Notes under the pieces: model-generated
Databases searched by the model: none
Told to the model about the DNA's origin: nothing
The model's input: only the letters and a program-made list of their open reading frames with translations
Origin: Lathyrus oleraceus
Lineage: Eukaryota; Streptophyta; Magnoliopsida; Fabales; Fabaceae
Assembly: GCF_024323335.1 (NCBI RefSeq)
Contig: NC_066583.1
Location: forward strand, 363,361,877-363,425,876
DNA length: 64,000 nt
Direction: 5' to 3'
Made by a program: the position numbers and the translations under genes
Part shown: in pieces, positions 1-50,071 of the stretch
Layout of the letters: each line of letters begins with the position of its first letter
How positions within the stretch are numbered: position 1 is the first letter of the stretch

Positions 1-2826
1 GATGTTGCATCCAATGAGCTTGAAATTGTTTGTGGTAAAACTAGACATGCTCACCTTCATTTCCATATAAAGTTTGTGCATTTATCATGTGTGGATTGAG
101 AGTTATGATTTTCTGAAGTTATGTGTTGCATTTGGTGCTACATGAATGATATGCATTTTCCCAACTTTTGTTCACACACTTCCTGGCCTCCAAATGACCC
201 CAAATTTTGCAAGAATGATCTTTTATGTGTCTATTTGATGTATGAATTTTCTTGGAATTGATTGTGAGGTTTTCTATTTTATTGTGAATTTTCTTCCCTG
301 CCTAGTCCATGGTTGACTTTTTGTGCAATGCATTGCCATATCATTTGGGAAATCCTCATACTTTATCACATGATCATGAAATTTCATATGTGATAACTAG
401 ACATCTTAAGCTTTGCATTGGTGTTAACCTCATTCATTTCTCTTCTGTTTTCAAATTGATATGATTTTTTGAAGTTGACCCATGCTTGTTGACCTCCATT
501 GTGCATGTTTGAAATTGTGTTGACTTCATGATTTTAATTGACTGCCTTCCTCTCATCCAAATTCCATGAAATTTGACATGCTTGCCATGATAGATGTTAG
601 GATTGAGTGTGATTTATTTGATGATTTTTGAAATTGTTTGAGTTGACTTTTGATGCAAGTCATTCTGTTGACTTTTGTATGCTCCCTTTCGCCTTACTTT
701 GACTTCAAATGTTCATGAATTGATCATAATGCATGATTTGAGTTTGAAACCAATTGTGATAGCTTCTCAAATGTTTGACTTTGGTTTTGGTTGACTTTTC
801 CTTGCTGCTTTGACTTTTTCTTCCATCCTTGACCCTAGGCTAGTCCTAGTGGTCTTCTGTGCTTACTATTGAGTTCCTGTTTCAGGTTGAGCACCATTGC
901 CATTGAGATCATACAAATGTGATTGGTTTTGATTACATATCATGTACTAACTTTTGTTTTGTAGGTTTGACTCATGTGTTTGAGTCTTGCTTTGCACAGT
1001 TGGCCTTCTGTGGTTGACTGTTTATCCATTCCTTTTGGTTTTAACTTTGAAACTGTTTACTGATTGTTTTGACTTTTTCAGGTACCTTAGTTGCTTAAGT
1101 TCTCTGAACTTGCTTTGCTTTGCTTTTTAGCAACTTGCTTGAGGTATAATCTCTTTTACTTCATGTAGTCTGGAGACCCGGTCTGTTATGTGACCGGGCA
1201 AACTGTCTGAAGTCCTCCTTAAGAGGCAATGCCTGTGTTTGTTTAAAATTGTCCCAAGCAGGAAAAGTCCTCATTTGAGGCAATTGGTGGAAGGTAGGGA
1301 TAAGTAGCCTATCCCCCACTATTCAGTGTGTCCTCTCTTTGCTCCCATTACATGGTTGAAGCATCGAGATAAAAACCCAAGATCTAATCGAGTCAATAAT
1401 GGGGAAAGAGTTCCATCTTTCTGAACTCCCCCACTTTCTATTATTTGATGCTCTCCCTGATTAGGGATAGAAGCAATGAGGCACACCCCTCATCTCCTAT
1501 TCATCTGCTTCACCTTAGCCTCTCAATGGCAAGGTTAAGAGCAACACTTACCCTATTACAGTTGGCCCTAGTGCCTAACCTTTTGCTTGAGCCTCTTGTA
1601 TGCATATAGAGTGTGCTTCTTGTGATTGTGATTGCCTGTTTGCTTTGCCTCTTTAGGTATAGCTTGGACTTGCCCTTGTGCAAGGTAGGTTGTGCTTGAC
1701 TTGCTTCCTGTGCAAGTCAAGTCTGTGTGGCTTGCTTCCTGTGTGAGCCATACTTAGAGTTGTTTAGCCGAACTACGGCAACTCTGATTCTCATGTTCAG
1801 ATGAGATACGTAGGCACGAGACGCGATGTCTTGCCGAGTTTGACTAACCACTAACACTAACTCTTTTCTCTCACCCCTATGTGATTGAGATCTCTTCTTT
1901 TCTCTCGCCCTCGTTGCGATTGAGACCTCCCATTTCTCTTGCCCTAGTTGCAATCGAGACCCTTGCTTCCTGTGCAAGCCGTGTCTAGGATAGGTTGGCC
2001 CGTGTGCCATTTAGCTAGAAACCTTAACTTAGGGTTGACTTTGCATGACAACATCTAGGCTCGAGTCGTAGTCTCCCTAGTGTTGTGTCTCCCTCTGTTA
2101 TCTGGTTAGGCTAGATCCTTGTCCCTGCGTAGGGGAACTACATCGCCCTGATCTTCATGCCAGATGAAGTATGTAGGCAGGAGATTGAGCTGATCTCTCC
2201 GGGCGCCTTTTCTTTTCTTTTGTGTTTGTTTGACAGTTATAGGCTGAGTCCCCGACTCCCTATCTATCTGTTGTGTTGTTTAGGTTCGGATGTCGATGTA
2301 AGTCCAGTGATTGGCATTCGGGCTCCACGTTTGCCTGTGTCTTGTTTGTTTGTGTGCGTGTCAGCCGAGCTACGAATGCTCTGATTCTTCTCTCGTCCGA
2401 GAAGATACGTATGCATAGGATGCGATATCCTAGCGAGCATGTGTCGTTTGCCCAGTCCGAACTACTTCGACTCTGATGTCTATGCCTGATGGACTAAGTA
2501 GGCCCAGGATACGATATCCTGCCGAGTCAGTTTCAGTCAGTTTCTTGTGTCTCTTTTCAGCCAGTGTGTATGAGTATTCGAGCAATGTTTAGCAACCAAT
2601 TTATCCTTCCTTTTGTGCGTGGATCCCGTAGAGTACTACGGATGCGTAGGGGTGCTAACACCTTCCCTTCGCATAACCGACTCCCGAACCCATCCTCTTT
2701 GGTCGCGAGACCATGTTCTTTCCCAGGTTTACTTCGAGCGTTTCCTTTCCCTCTTTTGGGATAAATAACGCACGGTGGCGGCTCTGTTGTTCTTCTTTTC
2801 CCGCCGGTTTTTCGCGCGATGCGACA
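1..2826 (+). mobile_element. Family-2 Ogre-like LTR, 3' part (start outside window)
   Basis: This is the downstream part of a long LTR read on the + strand. It ends at GATGCGACA (2826), the same end as the LTRs read on the - strand at 44329, 49316 and 61383. Shared landmarks, reverse complemented in those copies, include the GGTGCTAACACCTTCC block (about 2652), CGGTGGCGGCTCTG (2773-2786) and four structured modules (1769-2528). The first 1.7 kb is AT-rich, without a credible gene; the short open frames are not conserved between LTR copies. The LTR start and promoter lie left of the window. What follows 2826 is not a normal primer site but more LTR sequence, so the element is rearranged. Confidence 0.85.
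1769..2528 (+). promoter_or_regulatory. Four copies of a pseudoknotted RNA module in the LTR
   Basis: Copies lie at about 1769-1840, 2134-2204, 2365-2438 and 2458-2528. Each reads CTACnn - P1 5' strand - TGAT - P2 hairpin - nnGTAGGC - P3 hairpin - P1 3' strand. P1 is AACTC/GAGTT, GCCC/GGGC, GCTC/GAGC and GACTC/GAGTC in turn. P2 is TCTCAT/ATGAGA, CTTCAT/ATGAAG, TCTTCTC/GAGAAGA and GTCTAT/ATGGAC. P3 is GAGAC/GTCTT, GAGAT/ATCTC, AGGAT/ATCCT and AGGAT/ATCCT. The leading CTACnn can pair with nnGTAG across P1: CTACAT (2138) with ATGTAG (2171), CTACTT (2462) with AAGTAG (2496). The function is unknown. The position near the LTR end means the modules would lie in the transcript leader and/or the 3' end of the element RNA. 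Confidence 0.7.
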
Positions 2827-3385
2827 ATTGGCAGTCGGTTTCCATGTTTGCCTGTTTGTGTGGAGTCTGACGTAAGTCCAGCGATTGGCAGTCGGTTTCC
2901 TGTTTGTGTTTTGTTTGGCGTACGTTAGCCGAACTACGGTAGCTCTGATTCTCATTCCAGATGAGATACGTATGCATAGGATGCGATATCCTAGCGAGCA
3001 CGTTTCCCCCGTCCCGAACTACGTCGACTCTGATGTCTGTGCCTGACAGACTACGTAGGCCCAGGATGCGATATCCTGCCGAGTCCCGTTTCTTCCGTCT
3101 TTCATTTGTGTTTGTTTCCAGCGTGTGTGCAGTGTTTGAGCAGTCTTTAGCAACCTTTCTTCTATTCTTTTGAGCGTGGATCCCGTCGAGTACGACGGAC
3201 GTGAGGGGTGCTAATACCTTCCCCTTGCGTAACCGACTCCCGATCCTTGTAATCTCCGGTCGTAAGACCATCTCCTTTCCAGGTTTACTTCGAGCGTTTC
3301 TTTTCCCTCCTTTGGGATAAATAACGCACGGTGGCGGCTCTGTTTGTTTTGTTTTTCCCGCCGGTTGTTTTTCGCGGATGCGACA
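2827..3385 (+). repeat. Second partial copy of the same LTR end
   Basis: From about 2828 the sequence jumps back into the LTR (TTGGCAGTCGGTTTCC, about 2828 and 2885) and runs again to the LTR end GATGCGACA at 3385. It repeats two structured modules: 2930-2999 (P1 GCTC/GAGC, P2 TCTCAT/ATGAGA, P3 AGGAT/ATCCT) and 3014-3085 (P1 GACTC/GAGTC, P2 GTCTGT/ACAGAC, pseudoknot CTACGT 3019 with ACGTAG 3053). It also repeats the GGTGCTAATACC block and CGGTGGCGGCTCTG. The junction falls where a primer site (TGGCGACTC) should begin: TGGC is shared by both sides, which fits a microhomology join. Confidence 0.8.
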
Positions 3386-3629
3386 ACTGCCATGTGTCAT
3401 GGTCAGTTATATCAGTAGAGAATGAAGAAAGCTTTTGATAAGAAGGTCAAACCTCAAGAAGATTTTATCGTTCAAACCAGATTCCAGAGGAAAATGGACT
3501 CCCAATTATGAAGGCCCATACGTTTTCAAGAGAGCCTTTTCAGGCGGTGCATTGATTCTTACAACTATGGATGGTGAAGAGTTCACTCATCCTGTGAACG
3601 CAGATGCAGTCAAGAAATACTTCGCCTAA
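3386..3629 (+). pseudogene. Integrase C-terminal tail of an Ogre pol (fragment)
   Basis: The first codons encode TAMCHGQLYQ and then a TAG stop, followed by RMKKAFDKKVKP. After a roughly 30-base deletion that shifts the frame, KKILSFKPDSRGKWTPNYEGPY and the end VNADAVKKYFA-stop follow. The same tail is found at 17850-18230 (element A) and, damaged, at 58270-58612 (element D). It is the extreme C terminus of the polyprotein after the integrase core. It lies directly against an LTR end, so the whole internal region from primer site to integrase core is missing. ACTG is shared by both sides of the join (LTR end followed by the primer-site start, and the integrase codons ACT GCC). The fragment cannot encode a working protein. 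Confidence 0.85.
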
Positions 3630-5690
3630 AAAGAAAAAGAACAACTCGCTAAGTTGAAAACCTGAAAGGGCGGCTTAGGCAAAAATGAGTGTCTCGGTGG
3701 ATTAAAAACCCGAAAGGGAGATCCAGGAAAAAATTAGAGACATAAAACATAAGAATTTCCCGATAAGTTGAGTACCCCACCTTGGGGCAACTTATGAAAA
3801 AATTAGGGATTATGGCAAGTAACTGCATTCTGTTGACCTTCAAGGCTTTCAAGACTTGTTTGAGCACAAGGGTTGACATTAGTTCATCTCCAGCAGCGGT
3901 CAAGAGCACAATGGATATCAAGAGTTGGTAGAAGGATTAAGGATCATTTGTATTCAATGTAACCTTTTCCATGTAAATTACCATTTTCAACTCTGTAAAC
4001 TCTATGGAGTCTTGTCATTTACAGACTATCATTCTATTAAATAAAGTTGAGCTCTTATCCAATTGTTTCTACTCTTATTTACTTCAGCCAACAGTTTTAA
4101 TGTTTATTATGATCATTTTGAAATTAAATTTTTAAATTGAAGTCAAGTTTTCTTTAATATATAAAAGCAAGAACTTTTCCAAAGCAAGTAAAAAGAATAT
4201 CAACAACATTTCTATGAAAAACAAGTTCTTAAATACGAAGCATCTGAGGTTCCCTAAGCAGTTAACCCTTCGGGTATCCCTAGATGTTTCTGTTGATTCA
4301 GTTCCTCGACGGAGTGATCCCCGGTGGAGCCTCTTTCTTTATCCCCAGCTGATTTGGTTGATTCAAATACCCTGCGGCGTGTCCTTGTCTCCAACAGAGT
4401 TTCGGCCTTCCCCAATGGAGTTCGTATTTTCTCAGCAGGTGGATCGTCACCTGAGATGTTTGATCTTTCCCCAGTAGACCGCTTTGGTGTCCCCACCAAT
4501 CGCCATCTATCTTCGATCCCAGTCAGAGTTTCCTCCTGGTTCCTGAGCAACTTTTGATTTGTTTCTCAGTAGGATTGTCTCCCATTTTTATGGTGTTGAC
4601 CTAAAATTCCCTACAGATGGAGTGTTTTATCCTCAACAGATCTTCTCCTTCCTCATCTAGGGTTGAGCCCTTGGGATGTTGATCTCTCTGTTCTCCAGCA
4701 GTTTGTCTCCATATTTTGTGGATTGACCGAGGATTGTACTGGTGGTTAAATTTCTTTGCAACACCTCTGAATCCTTTGTGATCGTTTTGTCAGCATAATC
4801 ATCATATATACATATACATATACATTCATATAATTTCATAATTTGCATATCCTGTATATCTGATTTGTTTGAGATTCTGATTCTCTGTTATGGCGGTACT
4901 TTATCCCCATACCGAATCTAGTGTCTATCCTCTTTCAATTATAGAGTGTAATCCCCTTAAGAAGAAAGACTTTAACCTTTCTCCGTTTCCCCACTGAGTT
5001 TGTCTCCTCGTGGATGATTGTTATTTCAGTTTCCTCTCCAGCAAATTTTCTGGATGGAATTACTCCCCTTGAGTTATGTCCTCATTGGGTTGAGTCTTGA
5101 TTGACCATTTTCTTTCTAGCTCTTACCTAGATAGATATTTTGGTCCCCTAAGAGTCTATTACCAAGTAACTGGTAATATTCTTCTTAGTTTGCAGTTTGT
5201 TACTTCTTGCCCAATACCTGGCAAAAGTACCCTTTTGCTCTCCTCAGTAGAGTCCCCTGGAAGTATATCCTTGATATGCTCATCCTAACCAGTGACAGGT
5301 ATCTTTCTTTTCTCCACAGGAGTTTATCCTTGATATGTTCACTTTAACCAGTGACAGATATTCTCACTTTTGGTATTCTACCCACTGAAAAGGTAGTTGT
5401 AATCCCTATTTCGTTCCTCAGAGAGTTAATCCTTGATATGTTCATCTTAATCGATGACAAGTTCTCTTCTCCTTGTTGGTTTTCTACCCAGTAACCGGTA
5501 GTCATAAATCCTAATTTTTCATGTGCAGAGTCTATCCTTGATATGTTCACTTTAACCAGTGACGAATTTTCTCCCCCTTGGTATTCTATCCAGTAACTGA
5601 TAGATGTAATCCCTATTGTTATTCCCCTTTTCAGAGTCTATCCTTGATATGTTCACTTTAGCCGGTTCTCCCTAGAACCTATCTCCTACA
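3630..5690 (+). other. Ogre 3' untranslated region
   Basis: This lies between the pol stop and the 3' LTR. The first 150 bases (CTAAGTTGAAAACCTGAAAGGG and following) match the reverse complement of the regions below 17850 and 58270. From 4200 on it holds many ATCCCCAG-like words, the ATTCTATCCAGTAAC type hairpins (5157-5603), and repeats of TCCTTGATATGTTCACTTTA (about 5250, 5330, 5430, 5535, 5640). No polypurine tract or LTR start is seen at its end, so a deletion has removed them. No gene is present. Confidence 0.7.
5157..5603 (+). repeat. Array of hairpins with 8-nt loops and varying paired stems
   Basis: Stems and loops read directly: 5157-5178 TATTACC/GGTAATA, 5207-5224 TTGCC/GGCAA, 5378-5396 CTACC/GGTAG (9-nt loop), 5484-5501 CTACC/GGTAG, 5586-5603 CTATC/GATAG. 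The usual loop is CAGTAACC or CAGTAACT (AAGTAACT, CAATACCT in two). Stem changes are compensated (for example CTACC/GGTAG against CTATC/GATAG). Element A carries the same loop in its 3'UTR at 15586-16374. Confidence 0.75.
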
Positions 5691-6592: not shown

Positions 6593-9391
6593 GAGCTTTA
6601 ATTGATCAGAAATAACAACACCATTGCGCCAACTTTGATCCCCCATTGAAAACCCTTCACTCTCATAGGATAAACCTGATAAATTCATTTGAATTTGAGC
6701 TTGAATCTCCACTATTTTGGAATTCAATTCTCCAGGAATCCATTGCTTTTAAACCTTTCCATTCTCTTCCTGCAAGTGATTGATGTGAGTCCAAGTGCAA
6801 GCAAGCTCAAGATCCATCAACTTCAGACCTCCATTGAAGGTAATTTGCAGAAATTTTAAACTCTTCGATTCTCTCGAATTCTTGCTCAGTTCCATTGATT
6901 CTTTGGTTGTCTGAAGTCCTACCAATGTAGGCAAGAATATTGAGTTGCTTTGAGGTCAAATCGAAGCTACTCAGTTCATGTACCTCAGATTTCAATTTCA
7001 CACATCTCTTAATATATTTGAAATTAGAGTTATTGGAGGTTAGATTCGAGCTCAGTGCCATTTTCTCTTTAAGATCATGTCCTTGTTTCTTTTTTTGGTG
7101 ATGGTTTATGTTGACCAGTCCGGTGAGGCTCACCGGGGAAGATGACCGGAGCTCTAGCTCCGACGATGATGTGTCTTGCAATCTGAACCACATGATCCTC
7201 CTCTCACGTTCTAATCCTAAGCGTTGCTTTGAATTACCATCTATGCCACGCGGTTGACTCATGTACATGTGGAGCGCGCGTTTTGGATCATCAGATCTGC
7301 CACCTCAATTAATGAGGGAGATCTGATGGTCCACGTAATTTAAAATTTTCTGATTTTTGTTTTAATTGCATTTTCTTCAATAATTCATATTCAATTCAAT
7401 ATTGATCCAAAAAATATGGGACTTTCACCAAAAATTTTAAAATATTTTTATCTTTCATATTCTGAATTAAAATTATTTTTTGGATCATTATTAATATTTT
7501 TCATGAATTAATTGATTTTGTATTTTTTTTAATTATTTAAAAATATTTTTAAATGTCCAAAAATTATGAAATTTTTTCTCCAAGGTCCTTTGACCTTGTT
7601 TGACCTATGATATATCTCATGGCCATTTCTTTGGTGTTCTGATGAGATTTTAGGAATTGGACAAAACATATTTGAATTAAATGCACTATTTTATTATTTT
7701 TAATTGAATAAATGCCATTTAAATTTTGTTGACCATTTGTATTGACTTAATTGAGTTTGCTTGTTTGTTGTTGGGCCTTGGTCAAGGTTGATTTGACTTT
7801 GTCAAGCTAATATCATTGGATTTAGGGGATTGATGGAATGTACATTCCATCTCCCAAAATTAATGAATGATATTAATTTGGTAAAAGTCCTCATTTGACC
7901 AATTTGTGATCTCATTCATCCCCTTCCCTTATCATCTAATTCCCCTTCTTCATTCATTCATTTCCATTTGGCCTATGACATCTCAAAGTCCTAATGCTAA
8001 TTGATTGAAAGATTAACATGAGTATGGATGAGATTAGGCCACACATTTTGCATATTTTTTGTGTGTGTGTGGTATGTTAATGAGCATAGTCCATTATACT
8101 ATGTCTCCAACATGCATTAACACCAAAGTTCTATTGCCCGACCTCAAATAGTTGTGACTTCTATATAAGTCCAATTACGATTACTTAACATAGCGCTAAA
8201 TTTGTGACATAAAAGGCATAAGCATTCTAGTTAGTGAGATTGTAAGTCTCCCCTTTTTCATGATATTATGGGAAAACTTGGTATTCCTTCCTTCCTTTGG
8301 AAAATGTTTTGGTTCAAGGATCCATGCTTGTGATAAGTGGGTTGAGTGTTCTCCAAAGAATGTCTTGAAATCAAAAGCAAAACAAAACTAACTTCTAACC
8401 TACTAACCATTAACTCTTAATTTCAAGCTTTTACTTTAGTGCAATTTACTTTTAGCACTTTATTTCATTTGCCATTGTACATATCATTCTAATTGTTTAT
8501 GTTAATGCAATTTTCACTTTGTCCATTTGGACCATATTGTGAGATATATTTTATTTGGTGTAGCTTTGTTTGTTTGTGTGGTCTTTGACCATTAACGTAC
8601 ATAATAATAACAAAAATCATAAAAAAAAACTTTTGAGTGGACTGTTGGTTGGATCTTGAGCAAATGGACTTAGAATTTAGGCAACCTCCTATGCTAATGG
8701 ACTTGGCCAATGCCAACTTGTTGAAGAACCAAGTGCTTGCAATTTGAAATTCATCTGATACATCATTCAAGATCTCTCTGGATTCATCTGCAACATGATC
8801 ATTGTGAAGCTGTTTTTTTGAACCTGTGACATGTGGAATTCATCTGTTGCATGGGCTATTTTGAAGAAGATGATGAAGTGGATAAGCTTGGATGAGGCCA
8901 TCTTTATTTGATGCCTTGCTCTTCAGGATAATATAATTGTGTATTTGTGTGTTGTTTGATTCTAAAAGTCCATGGGAATTCTAGGTTTCTATTGACATAC
9001 TTGTCTATTGGATTGCTACCCATTTGGTCAGATCTTTCCAACTCTAAAATTTTAATTTGGTGCATAGGATAGTCTCTTCATCTTCTCCCCATTTCTTTAA
9101 TTTCAAAATCTCTCCCTCCATTTTCAAAATTTTCTTTGTGTGAACTACTTTTGTTCTAAACTTTGACCACTTTTTGCAAAAAAGATAGAAACTTTGGCCT
9201 TATGCCATTGCATTTTCAAACTTCTTTTCTTGAATCAACTTCTAAATAAATTTAACTATACTTGACTTAAACTTTCAAAAAGCCAAAAAGAACTAACTCA
9301 TTCAAATCATTTTCAGGCCGTTGTGCCTTTCAAACTTAAATTTTGTTAAAATCAACACACTCATTTTGAAATTTGTAGCACGAACTACGAG

Positions 9392-9450
9392 GTTTTGATC
9401 CCTCATTTTTATGTTGGTACGTAGGCACAAGACCGAAGGTCTTGTCAAAC
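9392..9450 (+). promoter_or_regulatory. Pseudoknotted RNA module, family-1 version
   Basis: P1 is GTTT (9392) with AAAC (9447). TGAT follows P1. P2 is weak (CC..CAT with ATG..GG). P3 is a 7-bp hairpin CAAGACC/GGTCTTG with loop GAA. The pseudoknot is CTACG (9386) with CGTAG (9420). Confidence 0.6.
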
Positions 9451-9942
9451 ACAAAAATATAATTAATGAATTCTTTTCTCATCCCCTCATTCTATTTGTT
9501 TGTAAACATCACTTTGTACAAAATACATATGCACACAAAAAGGGCTCCCTAGGAGTACCTAGGACACTTTGGGTGCTAACACCTTCCCTCTGTGTAACCA
9601 ACCCCCTTACCTGTGATCTCTGAATTTTATTAGTTTTCATTTGAAAACTTCTTACTCATTGGGTTTTGTTTGTGCTTTTTCCCTTTTCCATTGGAAACAA
9701 TAAAAGCGCGGTGGCGACTCTTGTTATTTGATCTCTAGCTTGTCAATAACTTGATGATCATGAATTTCCCGCTACAATAACCAAGCAAAAACAAAACCAA
9801 CATTAACATAGTTCAAAACAGTTTCGCAATAAAACATCAAAACAGAACGGAAAAGGAAGCATTAACACATCAAAATAGTTCCAAGATATAATGAAAAAAA
9901 TAAACTAAATAAAACATAACACAATATAGCATAGATAATGGT

Positions 9943-12926: not shown

Positions 12927-13286
12927 TGTAGCGGGGTATTCGTTACCATTAGAGATATTGACTAAATCCAAGGTAAATCATACAAGTCGAGTCGCCACCG
13001 CACTTCTATTTATCCAAAGGAATGGTTAGAAAGCGAACAAAAACCTAAAAGTTTTATCGAATCAAAAACTAAAAATGTCAGAGATCTGGGTAAGGGGGTT
13101 GGTTATGCAATCGGAAGGTATTAGGCACCCAAAGCATCCTAGGTACTCCTAGGGAGACCATTTCACATTTGTTGCAAAGGTTGTTGTTTTGTGAAAATTT
13201 ATTTGTGCAAACATGATTGAAGGGATGAGAAAAGCGTGTATGTTTATCTAATGTATTACTTACTAAAAGAAGGGTCAAAAGAAAAT

Positions 13287-13442
13287 GACTCGCACGGACG
13301 TCGCATCCACTGCATACGTATCTCATCTGAATCTGTGAATCAGAGTCTTCGTAGCTCGACTACCTATGGGTTAAAGAGGAGTGTGCTCAGTAAGACATCG
13401 CATCTTATGCCTACGTATCTCATCTGGGATGAAAATCAGAGC
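13287..13442 (-). promoter_or_regulatory. Two pseudoknotted RNA modules (element A 3' LTR)
   Basis: In element sense, copy 1 (13287-13347) has P1 GACTC/GAGTC and a short P3 GGA/TCC. Copy 2 (13385-13442) has P1 GCTC/GAGC, P2 TCATC/GATGA, P3 TAAGA/TCTTA, and pseudoknot CTACGT with ACGTAG. The same pair occurs in the 5' LTR at 25711-25771 and 25809-25866. Confidence 0.6.
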
Positions 13443-14408
13443 AAAACGTAGTTCGACCACCTATGGGGTAAGGGTTGTGTTTTGGGGTGAACGACGTTAC
13501 TACGCAATCTACCGATTGCTCGACCTTTGGAGACTTACTCGCCTGTAGTAGAAGGAGATAACGTGTTCTTAGGAGAAGAAAAATCAATGAGTTTGGGGTG
13601 TTTAGGGATGCTCATGCAAAAGGCAGTCCTAGATGAAGGAACCGCGCAACCTTAATTGACATGCCACGAAAGGCTATGCGAAACCTAAGAAAGCGGTAAA
13701 ATGCGGGAAAAATAAAGTACCACGCGGATAAAGATCCAAAGCAATAACAATTTACGAGGTAAGAAAACCAAAGATTCCCAAGCTAAACACCATCAAAGAA
13801 AGTGAGTCAGTACAGGTAATCGGAATAGACCTCCAGGTGGTACCCCACAAATAAAGTGGAACACCAAGCAAGCTATCCCTGCAAGAGTATGTGAGCCCTC
13901 ACAAAAACTCAACAAACAGGGTAGAGTAATATGACGGAATTAGGAGAAAACAATGCCATAACAAACACAAAACAGGTTAGAGCAAACAGGATAGGGTAAT
14001 CAAGAGTTGCCCCCAAATCAAAATGTAACCACATGAGTCATGCCATTAAAATTCACAAAAAGCTCACAAAAAGCAACCAAGGGTAGGAGGCCTAAACCTC
14101 TTGTCAAACACATGCATCAAAAGGGTATCAAATTCACCCATAATACCTCATACATTCAGAGCATTCAAATTAAAAGCATAAAGTAATGGGAATAAGGCAA
14201 ACCTGACTGGAGAGATCAATCAAATTGAATGGCACAGTTGGGTTTGCAAAGCACTCTTAGGGTTTATGTGAGAGGGAATTGGTTCTTTGCCGATGAGTTC
14301 CCTTCAGTCTCTGGAGGTTGCTCTGAACTCTGTTAGCTCTTCTCTCACTATCTTTTTCCCTGCCAGGGTAATAGGAATAGAATTGCCTTTTGTTTCACTG
14401 AAACTCTG

Positions 14409-14416
14409 AATTTATA
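14409..14416 (-). promoter_or_regulatory. LTR TATA box (element A 3' LTR)
   Basis: TATAAATT lies on the - strand and is conserved at 26832-26839 in the 5' LTR. In this 3' copy it would drive read-out transcription into flanking copia DNA. Confidence 0.5.
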
Positions 14417-14670
14417 ACCTGATTTTTGTGGACCTGTGGGCTCAAATGAGAGAGGCCCAAGTCCAAAATTTTTCTATTATATTTTATTTATTTATTTTTA
14501 ATTTTTTTTTTAATTTTTTTTTCGTTTTTCGCTTTTTTTTGTTTTTTTTTTGTTTTTCGTTTTTTTTTCTTCTTTTTTCGTTTTTTTAAACACGTGGGCT
14601 TAGCCTAGGGAGCATGACAGTTCAAGAAATTCCTCTGAGCGTAGGTGATTCTGGTGGCTTTTCTTGGGAT

Positions 14671-14702
14671 TCGCTAGGCGACCCATTCTGCTCGCCTAGC
14701 GA
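14671..14702. repeat. Perfect 11-bp inverted repeat in LTR
   Basis: TCGCTAGGCGA (14671-14681) and TCGCCTAGCGA (14692-14702) have a 10-base spacer. The same arms occur at 27064-27074 and 27085-27095 in the other LTR. Confidence 0.9.
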
Positions 14703-15083
14703 GCATGACAACTCATGAACAAACTTTTGCTCCTTCAAGATTAACGTTTTGACTGACGAATAGACCCTATTTGAACCTGTTGGAAGTATCTCAAGCCATT
14801 CCCTTGTGTTGACTGATCATCTAAATAGAACCCACAAAGTGTCTTGGATGATACTCAAGCTTCAAACAAAAGATGTTAGTGACACATTTTTGTGCTTTTG
14901 GTTAGTAAACAAAAGTAAGAGAAACAATGATGTATAATTCAAGCATGCTTGGTGATCTCAAACCAATCACAAGGAGTCCCACCCAAAGGCAAAGGGAACC
15001 AAGATGCTAAAGATCCTTGAGGCAATGCAAATGCAATGTTATGATGCCATGAGGGATCTTAGGGTCAAAATTGGGGTCTTACA

Positions 15084-25350: not shown

Positions 25351-27476
25351 TGTAGCGGGGTATTCGTTACCATTAGAGATATTGACTAAATCCAAGGTAA
25401 ATCATACAAGTCGAGTCGCCACCTCACTTCTATTTATCCAAAGGAATGGTTAGAAAGCGAACAAAAACCTAAAAGTTTTATCGAATCAAAAACTAAAAAT
25501 GTCAGAGATCTGGGTAAGGGGGTTGGTTATGCAATAGGAAGGTATTAGGCACCCAAAGCATCCTAGGTACTTCTAGGGAGCCCATTTCACATTTGTTGCA
25601 AAGGTTGTTGTTTTGTGAAAATTTATTTGTGCAAACATGATTGAAGGGATGAGAAAAGCGTGTATGTTTATCTAATGTATTACTTACTAAAAGAAGGGTC
25701 AAAAGAAAATGACTCGCATGGACGTCGCATCCACTGCATACGTATCTCATCTGAATCTGAGAATCAGAGTCTTCATAGCTCGGCTACCTATAGGTTAAAG
25801 AGGAGTGTGCTCGGTAAGACATCGCATCTTATGCCTACGTATCTCATCTGGGATGAAAATCAGAGCAAAACGTAGTTCGACCACCTATGGGGTAAGGGTT
25901 GTGTTTTGGGGTGAACGACGTTACTACGCAATCTACCGGATGCTCGACCTTTGGAGACTTACTCGCCTGTAGTAGAAGGAGATAACGTGTTCTTAGGAGA
26001 AGAAAAATCAATGAGTTTGGGGTGTTTAGGGATGCTCATGCAAAAGGCAGTCCTAGATGAAGGAACCGCGCAACCTTAATTGACATGCCACGAAAGGCTA
26101 TGCGAAACCTAAGAAAGCGGTAAAATGCGGGAAAAAAAAGTACCACGCGGATAAAGATCCAAAGCAACAGCAATTTACGAGGTAAGAAAACCAGAGATTC
26201 CCAAGCTAAACACCATCAATGAAAGTGAGTCAGTACAGGTAATCGGAATAGACCTCCAGGTGGTACCCCACAAATAAAGTGGAACACCAAGCAAGCTATC
26301 CCTGCAAGAGTATGTGAGCCCTCACAAAAACTCAACAAACAGGGTAGAGTAATATGACGGAATTAGGAGAAAACAATGCCATAACAAACACAAAACAGGT
26401 TAGAGCAAACAGGATAGGGTAATCAAGAGTTGCCCCCAAATCAAAATGTAACCACATGAGTCATGCCATTAAAATTCACAAAAAGCTCACAAAAAGCAAC
26501 CAAGGGTAGGAGGCCTAAACCTCTTGTCAAACACATGCATCAAAAGGGTATCAAATTCACCCATAGTACCTCATACATTCAGAGCATTCAAATTAAAAGC
26601 ATAAAGTAATGGGAATAAGGCAAACCTGACTGGAGAGATCAATGAAATTGAATGGCACAGTTGGGTTTGCAAAGCACTCTTAGGGTTTATGTGAGAGGGA
26701 ATTGGTTCTTTGCCGATGAGTTCCCTTCAGTCTCTGGAGGTTGCTCTGAACTCTGTTAGCTCTTCTCTCACTATCTTTTTCCCTGCCAGGGTAATAGGAA
26801 TAGAATTGCCTTTTGTTTCACTGAAACTCTGAATTTATAACCTGATTTTTGTGGACCTGTGGGCTCAAATGAGAGAGGCCCAAGTCCAAAAATTTTCTGT
26901 TATATTTTATTTATTTATTTATTTTTTCTTTTTCTTTTTTTTTTTCATTTTTTTTTCGTTTTTCGTTTTTCGTTTTTTTTAAACACGTGGGCTTCGCCTA
27001 GGGAGCATGACAGTTCAAGAAATTCCTCTGAGCGTAGGTGATTCTGGTGGCTTTTCTTGGGATTCGCTAGGCGACCCATTCTACTCGCCTAGCGAGCATG
27101 ACAACTCATGAACAAACTTTTGCTCCTTCAAGATTAACGTTTTGACTGACGAATAAACCCTATTTGAACCTGTTGGAAGTATCTCAAGCCATTCCCTTGT
27201 GTTGACTGATCATCTAAATAGAACCCACAAAGTGTCTTGGATGATACTCAAGCTTCAAACAAAAGATATTAGTGATACATTTTTGTGCTTTTGGTTAGTA
27301 AACAAAAGTAAGAGAAACAATGATGTATAATTCAAGCATGCTTGGTGATCTCAAACCAATCACAAGGAGTCCCACCCAAAGGCAAAGGGAACCAAGATGC
27401 TAAAGATCCTTGAGGCAATGCAAATGCAAGGTTATGATGCCATGAGGGATCTTAGGGTCAAAATTGGGGTCTTACA
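25351..27476 (-). repeat. Element A 5' LTR
   Basis: The 2126-bp LTR is the partner of 12927-15083. It contains the TATA box (26832), two structured modules (25711-25771, 25809-25866), the TGGCGACTC word (25413-25421) and the inverted repeat (27064-27095). Most of the length difference is in the T-rich tract near 26900-26980. Confidence 0.95.
26832..26839 (-). promoter_or_regulatory. LTR TATA box (element A promoter)
   Basis: TATAAATT on the - strand in the 5' LTR is placed to drive the genomic RNA of element A. It is conserved in the 3' LTR. Confidence 0.55.
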
Positions 27477-28098: not shown

Positions 28099-29616
28099 TG
28101 TAAGACCCCGATTTTGACCCTAAGATCCCTCATGGCATCATAACATGGCATTTGCATTGCCTCAAGGATCATAAGCATCTTGGCTCCTTACTCTTTGGGG
28201 TGGGATATCTTGTGAGTTGTTTTGAGGTCACCAAGCATACTTGAATTGTATATTATTGCTTTTCTCATTTTATTTTACTAACCAAAAGCACAAAAATATG
28301 TCACTAACATCTCTTGTTTGTAGCTTGAGCAGTCAAAAGGTCTAAAGCTTCTAGGAGATCTTATGTGCATTGATATGGCCAAGAGAAGATGAAAGCATGC
28401 ATGGAAATGGTTCCCAAAGCTCTCATCCATAAAATATGCCTCTCAAGTATCTCAATTCATCATTTTGATCAAAGAAAATCAAAGGATCTGAGGCTTGTTT
28501 CCCAAGGAAACCCTAATCCATCTGTTCATCAACTATGCCGTGCTCATGAAGCAACCTCAACCCATGGTCAAATACAATCAAGGGAAGTTCTTTAATTAAT
28601 CATTTCATGCATATTTGGACTTATTTGAGTGTCCTCAATCATCAATTCATCAAGATATGAGGTTTGGACTTGAGAAGTTGATCAGTCAATTCATCTGACT
28701 ATTTTGAAATACACTGAGAACTAACTTTTTATGTGTTTGTCAAATGGAGATAACCCCAAGATAAAAAATGTTCTTAAGGACTATATGAACAACTTTAATG
28801 TTAATAAAAAATTTATTTGAATCTTGTAAGGTCATCATCCATTCCAAGACATTATAGGTGATTTTGATTGAAACCCTAATTTTGGGTCAACTTCCCAAGG
28901 ACATAACTCCTTCATTTTTTATGATTTTGAAGTGAAACCAAATGAATTGGAAATATTAATATGTATACTTCAAATGTTATGTTGATAAAAATTTCAAAAC
29001 CTCAAAATAAATACATGTGATAATGCAAAACATTATAGGTCACTTTGGACCAAATGCATTGAAATGTGAAAAAGTCTAACTTCAAGTGCCCATAACTTCA
29101 TCATCAAAAACCTAAATGATGCAAAATTTGAGTCCAAATTGATTTTCTTGAAAAGATCTACAACTTTTATGTTTACGAGTTTGTGATTTGGAGCTTGTAT
29201 CATTGAGACAGAAGGGCTTGAACTTTCGCCAATTTTGAAAATCTCACATATGCATGTTTTGCACCCTACACTTCAAGTCCAATTTTCATTAATTTCCAAG
29301 GCCCAAATGGAATTTTGATCAACATAAAAAATGATCCTTATGCAATAAGCTTTCCAACCATTACTCATGAGGTGGTGTTCCTATTTTTAATATGGCATTT
29401 TCGAAGACTTGAATGTTATAGTCCATTTTTGGAAAATCATTTCATTTGCCTTGCATGAGCTAATACAGTCCAATCTGCACGTCCATTTTGCTTTCATCAT
29501 GCATTAGCTTCCAATTCCAATTGGAATTGGGCCCTCCATGCGCCTGTACAAGCCCATGCATGGAGGCCCTTTCCATTCATGCAAACTTTGAATCATGCAT
29601 TTCAGATGCTTTCTTC

Positions 29617-29624
29617 TATAAATA
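29617..29624 (+). promoter_or_regulatory. LTR TATA box (solo LTR)
   Basis: TATAAATA followed by CAAGGCCAATGC, at the position equivalent to 6585. A solo LTR of this kind could still initiate transcription toward element E on the right. Confidence 0.65.
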
Positions 29625-30170
29625 CAAGGCCAATGCTCTTCATTTCTTCAACCTTAAGGCGCCCCAATTGTTACTGAACTAAAATCCTAGCCATCACTAA
29701 AGGAACTAATTCATTTTTCTTCAAATTTTTCAGATCTGAATTTTGATTTCATTGATCAAATCTTCAGATCTCAAAGTTCCTAAACCCTCTCTCCTTGATC
29801 CATATTGTATACTATAAGCAAAAGCATCCAAAGATTAGGACTCAAAACCTTGCAAATCAAATGTTTACTTCAACTGTTATTTGCTTTGAATCAACTTGTA
29901 TAATGCTCTATTTCCGTTGTTATTGTGTGATCTGAAGTCCTCTACATAGAGGCAACATTATTATGCTTTCAATTTTTAAAAATCATGAAGTTCATATGAA
30001 CACCACAGAATTTCCACTTCTGATTTCTCTCAATATAGAGATCTAAAGTGGAATTGAGTGGTACATGGGTGATGTACATCACCCCAGCTCTCGATTAATG
30101 CCCGGATCGTGCCATTTGGTTACCATTTTTATTTCTGCAACTTTGGACATGGCCGCAAGTTGGCCGGAGA

Positions 30171-30194
30171 AGACGGTGGCGCTGGCCACCGTCT
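30171..30194 (+). repeat. Perfect 10-bp stem hairpin downstream of the promoter
   Basis: AGACGGTGGC, loop GCTG, GCCACCGTCT. A different but equally perfect hairpin occupies the comparable place at 7120-7136 (CCGGTGA/TCACCGG), and 47363-47381 in element C has GACGGC/GCCGTC. Confidence 0.85.
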
Positions 30195-32154
30195 GGTCTC
30201 CAGATTCAATCAGATCTATCCATTCATGTTTTCAGATTCAATCCCATGCGTCCAATGTTATGACTCATTTAATGGCTCAGTGTGATGCGTTTGACTCGCG
30301 TGCATGGTGAGCGTGCGCTTCTTGGCCACGTGATGATCCACGTCAATTAATGAGAGATCATCAGACGGTCCACGCTTTTTCTCCTTTTTCTAATTTCTGA
30401 TTTTTATTTCATTTTGTTATTTTAATTCCATTTCATTTTAAAAATTCATATCTCTCTCATTATTGGTCCAAAAATTATGGGACCAATTTCATTCTTCTCC
30501 TTTTATTTCATAATTTGATATTTTTTAGTAATTTTCTCTTTTCAGGTTATTTTTAATTCATTTAAAATAGTTTTTTATATCGAAAATATACAAAAATATT
30601 TTTCTAACCTCTTTGAATGATGATAGATCTATGAAAAACCTTCTCATCAATTTATTTGAGATTTTAATTCAATTAGGTTATTTTTATGCATTTTTAATTG
30701 ATTTAAAATAGTTTCTGACTTCTAAAAATGCTGAAATTTTTTGTCAAACTTTGTTTGACCTTGTTGAACTTACGATAATTCACTTAGATTTTTCAAAGTT
30801 GATTTGAAGTGAGTTTGAAGTTTGACCTTTCTTTATTATTTTAATTCAAGTTTTATTTTAATATTAAAAAATGCCAAAAATATTTTATTTGTTTCTTGAC
30901 TTCTAATTTTCATTTTGCTTCTGTTTTCTATTGTTTGACCTTGATCTTCTCTATCTTTGGTCAATACTTGTTGATTAATACATACCATTTCCATTAATGC
31001 ACTTTAATTCTTCATCTTCTTCATCTTCTTCTTTCTTTCTTCTTTTTGATCAATGAGTTAAAGATTGGTGGTTAGCATTGATACATGGAGGCTTAATCTT
31101 CCTTGATTCAAATCTAATTCATCTTGATCATAGATCAAGTGAATGGCTTTGCATTAAGGATAGGTTGCTTCCTAAATCACGCAAAGAACCTAAATCAATA
31201 CAAGACCATTTCTCATCTTCTTTTTGGCATGGCAAGTTGTTGGAGTTTGATTCACTAATCAAGACCTCTAACTTGTGTTGTTGCCTACATTATTACTGAC
31301 CGGCCTCAAATAGTTGTGACTTCTACATAAGTCCAATTACGATTGCTTAACATAACGCTAAATTTGCCTTATGACACACTAACTATTAACATTAACCTTT
31401 AACCATTAACATTTACTTCTTTCTCTTTACATTTATGCAATTTACTATTCTTGTACATATTATTCATTTGCTTTTCCCCCTTTGCTCATTTGAGCACATG
31501 TTTATGTTAATGCAATTTGCCTTTTGCTCACTTGAGCACATAATTGTATATATATTATTGTGCTTGTGTTTTGTTTTGATTGTTGTGGATCAAATGCAAA
31601 GAAATGGACAAATGGACTTAGTTCCTAGGACTTTCCCTATGCAAATTGGAGTAAAAGGACTTAAATGTTGAAGATGGATTTAGAAGGACTAAACCTCTAA
31701 ACTCACTCTTGTCCATTCTTGATTTACTTCATAGAATTCTTTGATGTGTGTGATTTTGTGCTAGGGGATCCTATGAGAGCTCAAATTGAAGAATCATTGC
31801 CATGTTCATCCAAAGTGAAAGATACAAGAGACATTGGGGATCTTCTAAGAGCTTGTTGATTATGTTGACTGCTTGAGCTTACACTTATTTTGCTTGCATA
31901 TTCCAAAGGATGGGAGCTACTTGGATCATCAATATGATCTGAAGAGAGGAACTCCATTTGTGGTCTTGTTTCTTATCCCTCATCTCTTGTATGATTAGGA
32001 CTTTAGCCATTCTTCTTCCCTCCACTCTAACCCAAGCCAAACTCCATTTGTGGTTTTAGGTTGAGTTTTCTCCTTTGGATAACAAAAGACCTTAAGACTT
32101 TTGGACCAATCAATTCACCAACTCATTTTTGAGATTTTTACCCCAAACTACGAG

Positions 32155-32213
32155 GTTTTGATCCTAATATTTTTTTAAGATGGTACGTAGGCAATGGGTT
32201 TATCCATCCAAAC
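32155..32213 (+). promoter_or_regulatory. Pseudoknotted RNA module (solo LTR)
   Basis: P1 GTTT (32155) with AAAC (32210); TGAT; weak P2; P3 ATGG/CCAT; pseudoknot CTACG (32148) with CGTAG (32186). Confidence 0.55.
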
Positions 32214-32549
32214 ACAAAAATGTAAATAACTTGTATATTCTCTTCTCATCTCTTCAATCATGTTTGCACGAATAAATTTTCACAAAATACCAACCTTACA
32301 ACAAGTATGAAAAGGGCTCCCAAGGAGTACCTAGGATGTTTTGGGTGCTTAAAACCTTCCCATTGCATAACCAACCCCCTTACCCCGATCTCTGACATTT
32401 TTACTAGTTTTTGATTCGATAAAACTTTTAGGTTTTTGTTCGCTTTCTAACCATTCCTTTGGACAAATAGAAGTGCGGTGGCGACTCGACTTGTATGGTT
32501 TACCTTAGATTTAGTCAATATCTCTAATGGTAACGAATACCCCGCTACA

Positions 32550-44627: not shown

Positions 44628-45276
44628 GACTCGGCAGGATGTCGCATCCTGGGCCTACGTAGTTTGTCAGAAACAAACATCAGAGTCGACGTAGTTCGGG
44701 GAAATGGGAAATAGGCTCGCTAGGATATCGCATCCTATGCCTACGTATCTCATCGGGAATGAGAATCAGAGCTACCGTAGTTCGGCTAACGCACACCGAA
44801 ACAAAACACCAAACAGAGACGCTGAGACGTCAAAAGAAAACTCAACAAGGAAACGGAATGCCAATGGCTGGACTTATATCCGACTCCAAACAAAAGCAAA
44901 CAGGAAATAGAATGCCAATAGATGGGCTTACATCCAACTCCCAACAAAAGCAAATAGGAAACAGAATGCCAATCGATGGGCTTACATCCGACTCCAAACA
45001 AATAAACAATCGCTAACCAGCGAACACCAAAGGTTCTCCAATTGACAAACTAAAAGGGAGTCTGGAACTCGGACCTAATAGTTGTCACACAAACACCAAG
45101 AAGACGCTGAGACGTTAAAAGAAACAAAGAGGTTGAACACACAAACTAAAAGGGAGTCGGGAACTCGGACCTAGTAGCTGTCAAGCAAAACACACGCAAA
45201 AAAAAGAAGAAGGGTGCCCGGAGAGATCTCGCACGATCTCCTGCCTACGTATCTCATCTGGTATGAGAATCATGGC
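44628..45276 (-). promoter_or_regulatory. Three pseudoknotted RNA modules (element C LTR)
   Basis: 44628-44687 has P1 GACTC/GAGTC, P2 GTTTGT/ACAAAC (GTCTGT/ACAGAC in the other copies: one compensated pair) and pseudoknot CTACGT/ACGTAG. 44715-44772 has P1 GCTC/GAGC, P2 TCTCAT/ATGAGA, P3 AGGAT/ATCCT. 45215-45276 has P2 TCTCAT/ATGAGA, P3 GAGATC/GATCTC and a weaker P1. Confidence 0.65.
44855..45003 (-). repeat. Threefold tandem repeat, about 55 bp
   Basis: Units contain AATGCCAATnGnTGGnCTTA followed by CATCCGACTCCAAAC. D carries the same unit three times (49795-49950, 61865-62025); the left LTR has it at 2829-2900. Confidence 0.8.
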
Positions 45277-47109
45277 GACGTAGTTCCCCTTAACAGGGGA
45301 GAAACTCTCCTAACCAGAAACCAAGGGAATAACGAACTAAAAGGGAGACTGACTCGAGCCTAATAGTCGTCATGCAAACAATAACCCTAGGTTGAGGTCT
45401 CTAACAAGAGTTTGACTCACACAGGAAGTGAGTCAACTCAAGTCTATCTCTACGTACGTTCAACTTCCTCGAAAGTTGATCATACGACTCCTACAGAAAA
45501 GGAGATGAGAAGTGAAAAACAGATAAACATACCAGCAATCATCACACTCTATATACAAACAAGAGGCTCAGACAAATGGTTTGGCTTTAGTCAAGGGGTC
45601 ATATCAACCTCGACAAACAAGCCAAAACTGTATGGGTGTTCTGAAGCTCTTAACCACTAACATTGAGAGTTAGGGTGAAGCTGATGAAAGGTAATGAGGA
45701 TGAGACCTCATACTCTTAACCTTGGCCTGGGTGAGCTTAAATCAATGAAAGCGTGGGGGTCCAGAATGAGGGACCCTATTCCACTTGACCGACTCTATAC
45801 AAGGATCTCGGGTTAGGTTCAAGAGCGTCAGCACGTAGTGCGAGCATAATGAACGACTCAACGACTAACAGGGGACTGATTGCTAGTCCCTTCTATCTGT
45901 CAATTGCGTCTTCACTTAGGAGGACTTAACAAGCAACATGCCTCGACAAGGAGGTCTTTGGCACAAATATAAACAAACACAGTCATTGCCTCTTAAGGAG
46001 GACTTCAGCCAAACGCCTGCCAAAAAAGTGACAGGGCTTCCAGACTACATGGAATTAGAAGGCTAAACTACCTCAGTGGTGTACCAACCACACTCCAAAG
46101 CAAAGAAAAGCAAGCTAATAGCGACTAATGTACCTGTACAAAAGCCAAACAGTTAGTATTGTATTCAGAAAACCAACAGACAACACAGTGGAATCATCCA
46201 ACAATTACACAATGCAAGCCACAAATGCAAGCACTCAAGTGAGTTCATCACATCAATGGACCTACAACACAACAATAGTTAGTAATCAAAGCAAATGACA
46301 TCTCAAATGATGAGGCCACACCAATCATTAATGCTAAATACCTGAAACACAAACACAATTGGTGAGTACAAACCACTAGTACAAAGACTAGGGTCAAAGG
46401 CAAGTCAAATGACCAAAACAGAAGTCAAAATTTCACATGAAGCACATTTAATCAAACAAGAAGAAGGCCTCAAAAGGACCAAAGCCAAATCAAAAGGCAA
46501 AGCCATCAATTAATCAAGATAAGGCAAAGGCAAACAATGTGATTAAAATTGGACATCAAACATAGAAAATCCACATTAAAACAGAAACGTATCCAATGAT
46601 CATGAAATTTTTTATACAGGCTTCTCATGTTAAGAATGAACATCATACAAAAATCCAACTCCAGAAGGGATCAAATGGCATATGAATGAAAATATACAAA
46701 TGCAACATACAAATTGTGACACAAATTGTCACACCAAATGTCCATGTATCCAAAACAGTGGTAGAACATGATAAAAATTCCAAACCAATTCTCAAAAATC
46801 CAGTCACATGTTAGGAACAAGCATGTCAAATTTCAATCCAATTGGACAAATCATGAGCATCTTACAATCAATTGATCACAACATGTCAATATTGCACAAT
46901 GTCCAATAAAAAATCAACAAATAAAAATCCAGAAAGGCAAAATTCATGAAATTAGTATCAAAAAATACTAGACATCCAAACAAACATGTGAAAAAAAGTT
47001 GCACTCAATTTGGATCATTCTACCATTTTTTATGGATTTTTGAAATTGCATGAAATAATATGAAATAATGCATGGAAATGAGAGGGAAAATAAAATTCAA
47101 AATGAAAAT

Positions 47110-49315: not shown

Positions 49316-49604
49316 TGTCGATATGAACAGGCGGGAAAACAAAAACAACAGAGTCGCCACCGTGCGTTATTCATCCCAAAAGAGGGAAAGGAAACGCTCG
49401 AAGTAAACCTGGAAAAGACATGGTCTCGTGATCAAAGAGAGATGGGATCGGGAGTCGGTTATGCGAAGGGAAGGTATTAGCACCCCTACGCATCCGTCGT
49501 ACTCGACAGGATCCACGCTCAAAAGAAAGGATAAGGTTGCTAAAAACTGCTCACAAACATCACACACAGGCTGGAAAGAACACACAGAAAGACAAGAGAA
49601 ACAG

Positions 49605-50071
49605 GACTCTGCAGGATATCGCATCCTGGGCCTACGTAGTCTGTCAAGCACAGACATCAGAGTCGACGTAGTTCGGGACAGGGGAAACGTGCTCGCTAGG
49701 ATGTCGCATCCTATGCATACGTATCTTCTCTGACGGGAGAAGAATCAGAGCACTCGTAGCTCGGCTAACGCACGCCAAACAAAACCACACAGGAAACCGA
49801 CTGCCAATCGCTGGACTTACGTCAGACTCCAACAAGCAAACAAGACACAGGAAACCAACTGCCAATCGCTGGACTTATGCCAGACTCCAACAAGCAAACA
49901 AGACACAGGAAACCAACTGCCAATCGCTGGACTTATGCCGGACTCCAAACACACACAAAGGGGTTGAAAACAAAAAGGGCGAACAAAACACACGCAAAAA
50001 TAAAAAAGGGCGCCCGGAGAGATCAGCTCAATCTCTGGCCTACGTACCTCTTCTGGTATGTGGATCAGGGC
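49605..50071 (-). promoter_or_regulatory. Three pseudoknotted RNA modules (element D 3' LTR)
   Basis: 49605-49664: P1 GACTC/GAGTC, P2 GTCTGT/ACAGAC, P3 AGGAT/ATCCT, pseudoknot CTACGT/ACGTAG. 49691-49751: P1 GCTC/GAGC, P2 TCTTCTC/GAGAAGA, P3 AGGAT/ATCCT. 50012-50071: P1 GCCC/GGGC, weak P2, P3 AGAGAT/ATCTCT, pseudoknot CTACGT/ACGTAG. Confidence 0.7.

Follow-up and report, generated by a model that had tools for sequence, protein, structure and literature searches.

A compact, covarying RNA module of about 68 nt recurs in the long terminal repeats (LTRs) of Ogre-type retrotransposons in a 64,000-nucleotide stretch of the pea (Lathyrus oleraceus) genome, from now on referred to as the window (assembly GCF_024323335.1, contig NC_066583.1, positions 363,361,877 to 363,425,876, forward strand). 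All 21 copies listed in an initial annotation of this DNA could be confirmed, each in the sense orientation of its own LTR (8 on the plus and 13 on the minus strand). As shown by the aligned copies, the predicted fold is a three-way junction closed by helix P1, with a 5′ flank that pairs into the junction between hairpins P2 and P3. This layout corresponds to an H-type pseudoknot with one hairpin inset in each of its two long loops. The structure is well supported and its function hypothetical.

From 5′ to 3′, the module consists of strand a (CTACG), a spacer of 1-3 nt, P1a (5 nt), TGAT, the P2 hairpin (6 bp), a single T, strand a′ (CGTAG), GC plus one further nucleotide, the P3 hairpin (6 bp), 2 nt and P1b. 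The order proposed initially, namely CTAC, P1a, TGAT, P2, GTAG-GC, P3 and P1b, fits all 21 window copies. Strand a pairs with strand a′ at the P2-P3 junction to form the pseudoknot helix, an arrangement common to all 21. Length differences are confined to the hairpins and the 1-3 nt spacer, and the linkers are near-constant at 1-3, 4, 1, 3 and 2 nt. In a larger set of 33 copies (21 from the window, 10 further pea copies and 2 from elsewhere), TGAT is intact in 32, the T and the GC are invariant and a C directly precedes P1b in 30. Some computed folds suggest that P3 may gain one pair in which this C joins the invariant G of GC, where invariance precludes covariation. The crossing helix claimed in the initial annotation stands as a pseudoknot under the tree-based null described below, and is less regular at its ends than claimed: 6 of the 21 window copies have a C/T mismatch at pair 1, and pair 6 is formed in only 11 of 21. 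Further, 5 of the 21 lack the outer P1 pair, P2 is very short in the L020 copy at 4972-5043, and P3 comprises just 3 bp in the copy from contig L005. It should be noted that strand a′ reads GTATGC for GTAGGC in 6 of 21 window copies, five of which have a G for A right before CTAC; a bulged T would permit a G-C and a C-G pair in place of the lost pair. The nested free energy is unremarkable, with z-scores of -3.0 to +0.2 (10 pieces, several without 1-2 nt of P1b and the piece at 9385 off register), and the case for structure therefore rests on covariation.

Across the 21 window sequences, 94.6% of the 461 cells of the proposed helices are paired, in keeping with the original observation that the stems differ in sequence yet stay paired. 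The covariation score amounts to 0.552, versus 0.215 ± 0.017 in shuffled alignments (reached by 0 of 500 shuffles) and at most 0.136 in slid registers. Four of five measures lie above the shuffled and slid controls, and the fifth, the number of further pair types, shows no excess (30 observed versus 31.0 in shuffles). Two-sided changes occur in all P1 pairs, five of six P2 pairs, four of six P3 pairs and one of five pseudoknot pairs, the last figure being low because the other pseudoknot positions hardly vary; the single changing pair takes the forms G-C, A-T and T-A. These 21 copies are non-independent: five module types recur within two LTR pairs, and the remaining copies are paralogues. The initial annotation had made its case depend on covariation that outlasts phylogenetic correction. 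Under a home-made tree-based null (150 null alignments, 31 distinct rows among the 33 copies), E-values (E) below 0.05 were obtained for 11 of the 23 proposed pairs, spread over all four helices including the pseudoknot, so that each helix is supported. Over all 1,953 possible pairs, four fall below E 0.05 and none of the 1,930 non-proposed pairs falls below E 0.5. The registers of P1b and P3 were chosen for maximal P1/P3 pairing and the pseudoknot played no part in this choice; five copies from pattern-hit pieces were left out of the covariation set.

Pseudoknot pair 5 reaches E 9.4e-4 among the 23 proposed pairs and E 0.08 over all 1,953 pairs. It is G-C in 27, A-T in 4 and T-A in 2 of the 33 copies and broken in none, departing from G-C in three backgrounds, specifically, type I modules (A-T), type III modules (T-A) and the L020 copy at 7737-7816 (A-T). 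A genome-wide scan of pea (3,795,255,167 bases, 1,550 contigs) for the type III pattern returned 10,596 matches with T-A at this pair, a count inflated by relatedness and probably representing one amplified, non-independent family, as well as 10 with the broken T/C combination and 0 for a reversed control pattern. The T/C combination is rare in the type III background. With fixed registers, the 33 copies contain 28 G-T versus 4 A-C cells (13 versus 3 distinct cases), as expected if the LTR-sense RNA is the folding strand. Taken from these alignments, the RNA shape appears to be under selection, with paired letters changing together in the sense strand.

All copies were placed by alignment and with a covariance model that was built without the pseudoknot and whose scores start at 45 bits for complete copies and do not exceed 17 bits for noise; in the window, every module scores at least 50.7 bits and the next match 11.9 bits. 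An exact-pattern search gave 6 matches versus 0.00 expected from shuffles, and a looser home-made descriptor recovered 11 of 21 modules plus 3 unrelated places, with 0-2 matches in each of 10 shuffled windows. On the plus strand, modules are found at 1773-1840 (LTR E), 2138-2205 (type I, pair 5 A-T), 2370-2439 (type II, GTAT variant), 2462-2528 (type III, pair 5 T-A, the background of the genome-wide T-A pattern), 2934-3000 (type II) and 3019-3085 (type III, pair 5 G-C). LTRs F and B, also on the plus strand, carry single copies at 9385-9451 (P2 imperfect, partly broken) and 32148-32214 (P2 degenerate and poor). Element A, on the minus strand, has tandem pairs at 13384-13451 and 13287-13354 (the second copy, P2 partly broken) in its 3′ LTR and at 25808-25875 and 25711-25778 (the second copy) in its 5′ LTR. 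The remaining minus-strand copies are each of types I, II and III in turn: 45215-45283, 44714-44780 and 44628-44694 in LTR D; 50011-50078 (P2 partly broken), 49690-49759 and 49605-49671 in the 3′ LTR of element C; and 62085-62152, 61764-61833 and 61679-61745 in its 5′ LTR.

The window contains the Ogre-type LTR elements A, B and C as well as the LTR pieces D, E and F. RVT_1 domains are present in A and B, rve and Integrase_H2C2 domains in B, and the first long open reading frame (ORF) of element A encodes DUF7745. A Ty3/gypsy pol together with an additional ORF upstream of gag, which we take to be the Ogre hallmark, is thus found here. LTR alignment placed the 3′ LTR of element A at 12927-15083 (minus strand, starting TGTAAGACCCC, TATAAA at 14416) and its 5′ LTR at 25351-27476 (minus strand, TATAAA at 26839), with the primer-binding site (PBS) TGGCGACTCTGCTGGGGA just past 25351. 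The 5′ LTR of element B spans 28099-32549 (plus strand, TATAAA at 29617), and the LTRs of element C have alignable ends at 49326 and 61400 (minus strand). The 5′ LTR of element C is likewise followed by TGGCGACTCTGCTGGGGA, and in both A and C the PBS TGGCGACTC adjoins the LTR; we take this PBS to be of the tRNA-Arg type. By their reverse transcriptase (RT) and integrase domains and this presumed PBS type, the host elements belong with Ogre (Tat, Ty3/gypsy).

Each LTR contains one to three modules, located before the LTR end and an AATAAA-like signal and, in elements A, B and C, about 1-3 kb downstream of a TATA box. All 21 window copies are followed within 1.2 kb on the same strand by CGGTGGCG[A/G]CTC, departing from CGGTGGCGACTC at no more than one position. 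For the other 12 copies, such a primer-like site has at most one mismatch in five cases and three mismatches in three cases, the best antisense matches also having 3-6 mismatches, and is not recognisable in four (two copies cut by the piece end, the L021 copy at 3554-3633 and a copy beside a hAT transposon described below). An AATAAA-like block (GGATAAATAA, AATCAATAAAA and similar) lies about 15 nt or less before the primer-like site, mostly with T-rich sequence next; in LTR E, for example, the PBS-like CGGTGGCGGCTC at 2773-2784 (plus strand) stands behind this block in the putative poly(A) region. We infer that the poly(A) site is at this block, past the modules, which would place them in the R region and hence in both the 5′ leader and the 3′ untranslated region (UTR) of the transcript. 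The TATA-to-LTR-end position, recurring in further pea copies with downstream sequence, joins the four-helix covariation and the sense-strand bias in supporting the initial proposal that a structured RNA is at work in the transcript of the element. In all six window LTR groups, a second TGGCG[A/G]CTC, the start of the primer site, is present about 50-90 nt upstream of the LTR end and behind the AATAAA-like block; it may mark the R/U5 border or a second tRNA contact. Further, an LTR 3′ segment comprising two modules, the AATAAA-like block and the hairpin described next is present as a tandem duplication at 2295-2833 and 2869-3392 (plus strand, 80% identity).

The last module is followed, after about 100 nt, by a second covarying element, a hairpin with a 5-bp stem and a mostly conserved GAGTAC loop that contains the self-complementary GTAC (2626-2641 on the plus strand in LTR E). 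Counterparts are present in LTRs A, B, C, D, E2 and F and in L010, L020, L021, L034 and L036. In the resulting 16-row alignment, 92.5% of 80 cells are paired, four of five pairs have two-sided changes and the covariation score is 0.690 versus 0.205 shuffled; two of five measures are without clear excess, namely two-sided pairs (47/500 shuffles) and further pair types (208/500). The hairpin is absent from L005 and its loop is altered in L020 (5102-5202) and in LTR D. A dimerisation-type kissing loop via GTAC is possible.

Beyond the window, a pea sample of 200 kb contained 10 full modules (at least 46.2 bits) and one cut copy (20.5 bits), remaining matches scoring at most 15.9 bits. The genome total is of the order of 10^5 modules, a rough extrapolation with large uncertainty given that all copies lie within 4 of the 20 sampled pieces. 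In 1-kb pieces at three pattern matches, the model picked out five copies with scores between 24.8 and 85.8 bits (the weakest is a degraded copy), all in LTRs of the same layout as those of the window. Outside pea, two cases stand out from all other non-window matches (at most 17 bits), which makes the distribution wider than the three Ogre families originally claimed. The first, L005 (47.2 bits), a contig of 4,160 nt in a Solirubrobacter record, has a GC content of 27-44%, an LTR 3′ end and a PBS, and represents contamination of a bacterial assembly by the LTR of another plant. The second, L006/L009 (45.7 bits, E 2.2e-9), is filed under a Bacilli metagenome-assembled genome and carries the module about 50 nt past the stop codon of a hAT transposase whose ORF is open, retaining all helices with new stem sequences. 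Among the 120 matches listed out of 255, the named relatives of this transposase come from Acer, Xanthoceras and Dipteronia, the last with 74% over 85% of the query. The contig continues into a truncated bacterial ssb gene and would thus be a chimera with plant hAT DNA. L007 was rejected as a chance match (12.6 bits). In viral contigs, scans with module patterns gave chance-like matches or none, the Ogre RT piece led to no confirmed relative and the hAT protein to none.

Known RNA families offer no direct counterpart. At the gathering score, Rfam gave no match in the window, L005-L007 or 20 pea hAT flanks, and a permissive search (window 1600-3450 with E up to 10; 351 bases of L006) yielded just unrelated weak matches. 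In agreement with the initial annotation, which knew of no prior account, no description of an Ogre LTR module was found among the matches listed for the open-access literature, so that its absence from print is not established; one such match, PMC10578108, deals in the excerpt available with stem-loops of enod40 RNA.

By analogy, we favor, at a probability of roughly 40%, the module acting as a cis-acting RNA element of the transcript R region that keeps, exports or protects the element RNA. Modules in R would be present at both transcript ends, and a folded module in the 3′ UTR would recruit a host factor or block a nuclease, with the RNA consequently kept, exported or protected. A role in RNA fate is favored because of the R placement, the tandem copies and the hAT copy. 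Precedents include the ENE of the plant transposon Evade, a 3′-UTR RNA element whose class is defined in PMC12501189 by U-rich internal loops accommodating the poly(A) tail; an ENE is also mentioned for a rice hAT in an excerpt of PMC12846552. Like the module, ENE and dENE are structured cis elements of transposon transcripts found in LTR and hAT elements. The MusD transport element (MTE), according to a portion of PMC12786077, is a pseudoknotted cis element of an LTR element, differing in belonging to mouse and in its export by NXF1. Several points weigh against such a role. The module differs from ENE and dENE in its pseudoknot fold, and the alignment of copies contains no ENE-type U-rich internal loops. 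Further, the GAGTAC-loop hairpin and the position upstream of the PBS would equally suit a packaging or dimerisation leader. The hAT case is one copy on a contig extending into bacterial DNA, and the module was found in 0 of the 20 pea hAT 3′ flanks (best 8.3 bits), which were drawn from 69 scored matches only 28-31% identical to the query.

Ty1 RNA reportedly contains a pseudoknot near its 5′ end, a precedent for a packaging role. Modules and the GUAC-loop hairpin about 100 nt downstream could accordingly form a region recognised by Gag during packaging and dimerisation of Ogre RNA, a serious contender that we nevertheless consider rather unlikely. The second covarying hairpin with its self-complementary loop would fit, as would the distance separating the last module from the downstream block, which is 173-176 nt in many LTRs and 154-214 nt overall. 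If in R, however, the modules would sit at both RNA ends, and packaging would serve no purpose for the hAT copy. Stability or export is given a slight preference over packaging because this intact copy lies just past the stop codon of a plant hAT and hAT mRNA is never packaged.

Three further explanations appear improbable to a similar degree. In analogy to flaviviral exonuclease-resistant RNAs (xrRNAs), the junction-held 5′ flank might halt XRN-type 5′-3′ decay so that a stable 3′ fragment remains. Common features are the three-way junction with a 5′ flank in the junction, the like order of parts, the presence of more than one copy and the location in an untranslated region. As described in an excerpt of PMC5760640, two nucleotides at the 5′ end of these xrRNAs pair with two junction nucleotides, and one virus has two copies. 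The module, found in plant transposons, differs by a crossing helix of 5-6 bp instead of 2 bp and by the lack of an evident loop-to-downstream pseudoknot, no constant downstream complement of the P3 loop being seen by eye (without a statistic), and no Rfam xrRNA model matched window 1600-3450. A translation element, recruiting ribosomes in a long leader or serving as a 3′ cap-independent enhancer, is an outside chance: the stretch of about 1-3 kb from TATA box to modules in A, B and C would provide such a leader, and nothing specific speaks against it, though the hAT 3′-UTR position would demand 3′-to-5′ action. Equally doubtful is a switch between two folds that form either P1 or the CTAC/GTAG helix, never both. 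Nested minimum-energy folds do vary between pieces, some forming P1 and others CTAC/GTAG, a result biased by several pieces lacking 1-2 nt of P1b; however, the two helices use separate bases and the near-constant linkers fit one compact fold.

HDV-like ribozymes (of hepatitis delta virus type) are double pseudoknots with a 3-bp P3 without linker, a P1.1 pairing and a J4/2 of about 4-5 nt with the catalytic C. The module resembles those of R2 and L1Tc in its use in retrotransposon RNA and in the 5′-to-3′ order of its four helices, P1-P2-P3-P1′-P4-P2′ in HDV terms, and in 30 of 33 copies the last nucleotide of its J4/2 is C. Self-cleavage is nonetheless very improbable: J4/2 measures just 2 nt, there is no evident P1.1 (no constant CC/GG by eye), and a 4-nt TGAT linker and a 6-bp hairpin take the place of the short P3. 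Moreover, 8 of 33 copies have a C/T mismatch at the pair adjoining the presumptive cleavage site, each LTR has 1-3 copies, one copy lies beside a DNA transposon gene and no Rfam HDV model matched window 1600-3450 at E up to 10. The helices P1, P2 and P4 and the pseudoknots P1.1 and P3 of the ribozyme are named in an excerpt of PMC4035085. The module is assigned to neither HDV ribozymes nor flaviviral xrRNAs because defining details of both are absent or not in evidence and the Rfam models gave no match. Finally, DNA-level inverted repeats or transcription-factor sites are next to negligible as an explanation: TACGTA provides an ACGT-core site in most copies, but 6 of 33 copies, like the 10,596 T-A-type matches in the genome, have lost ACGT with compensation, and the G-T/A-C asymmetry also speaks against this reading.

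Tentatively, and with the odds against it, we hypothesize that plant LTR retrotransposons and hAT DNA transposons share one nested-pseudoknot domain that keeps their RNA alive or exported. If genuine, the hAT copy points to an RNA device common to both transposon classes, and such a device would be an RNA element used across transposons, with a fold not represented in Rfam and about 10^5 copies in pea. Ogre and its relatives make up a large share of Fabeae genomes, and no cis-acting RNA signal was described for Ogre among the literature matches listed. A covarying pseudoknot module of very high copy number offers a concrete, mutable target for asking how the long Ogre transcripts are stabilised, exported or packaged.

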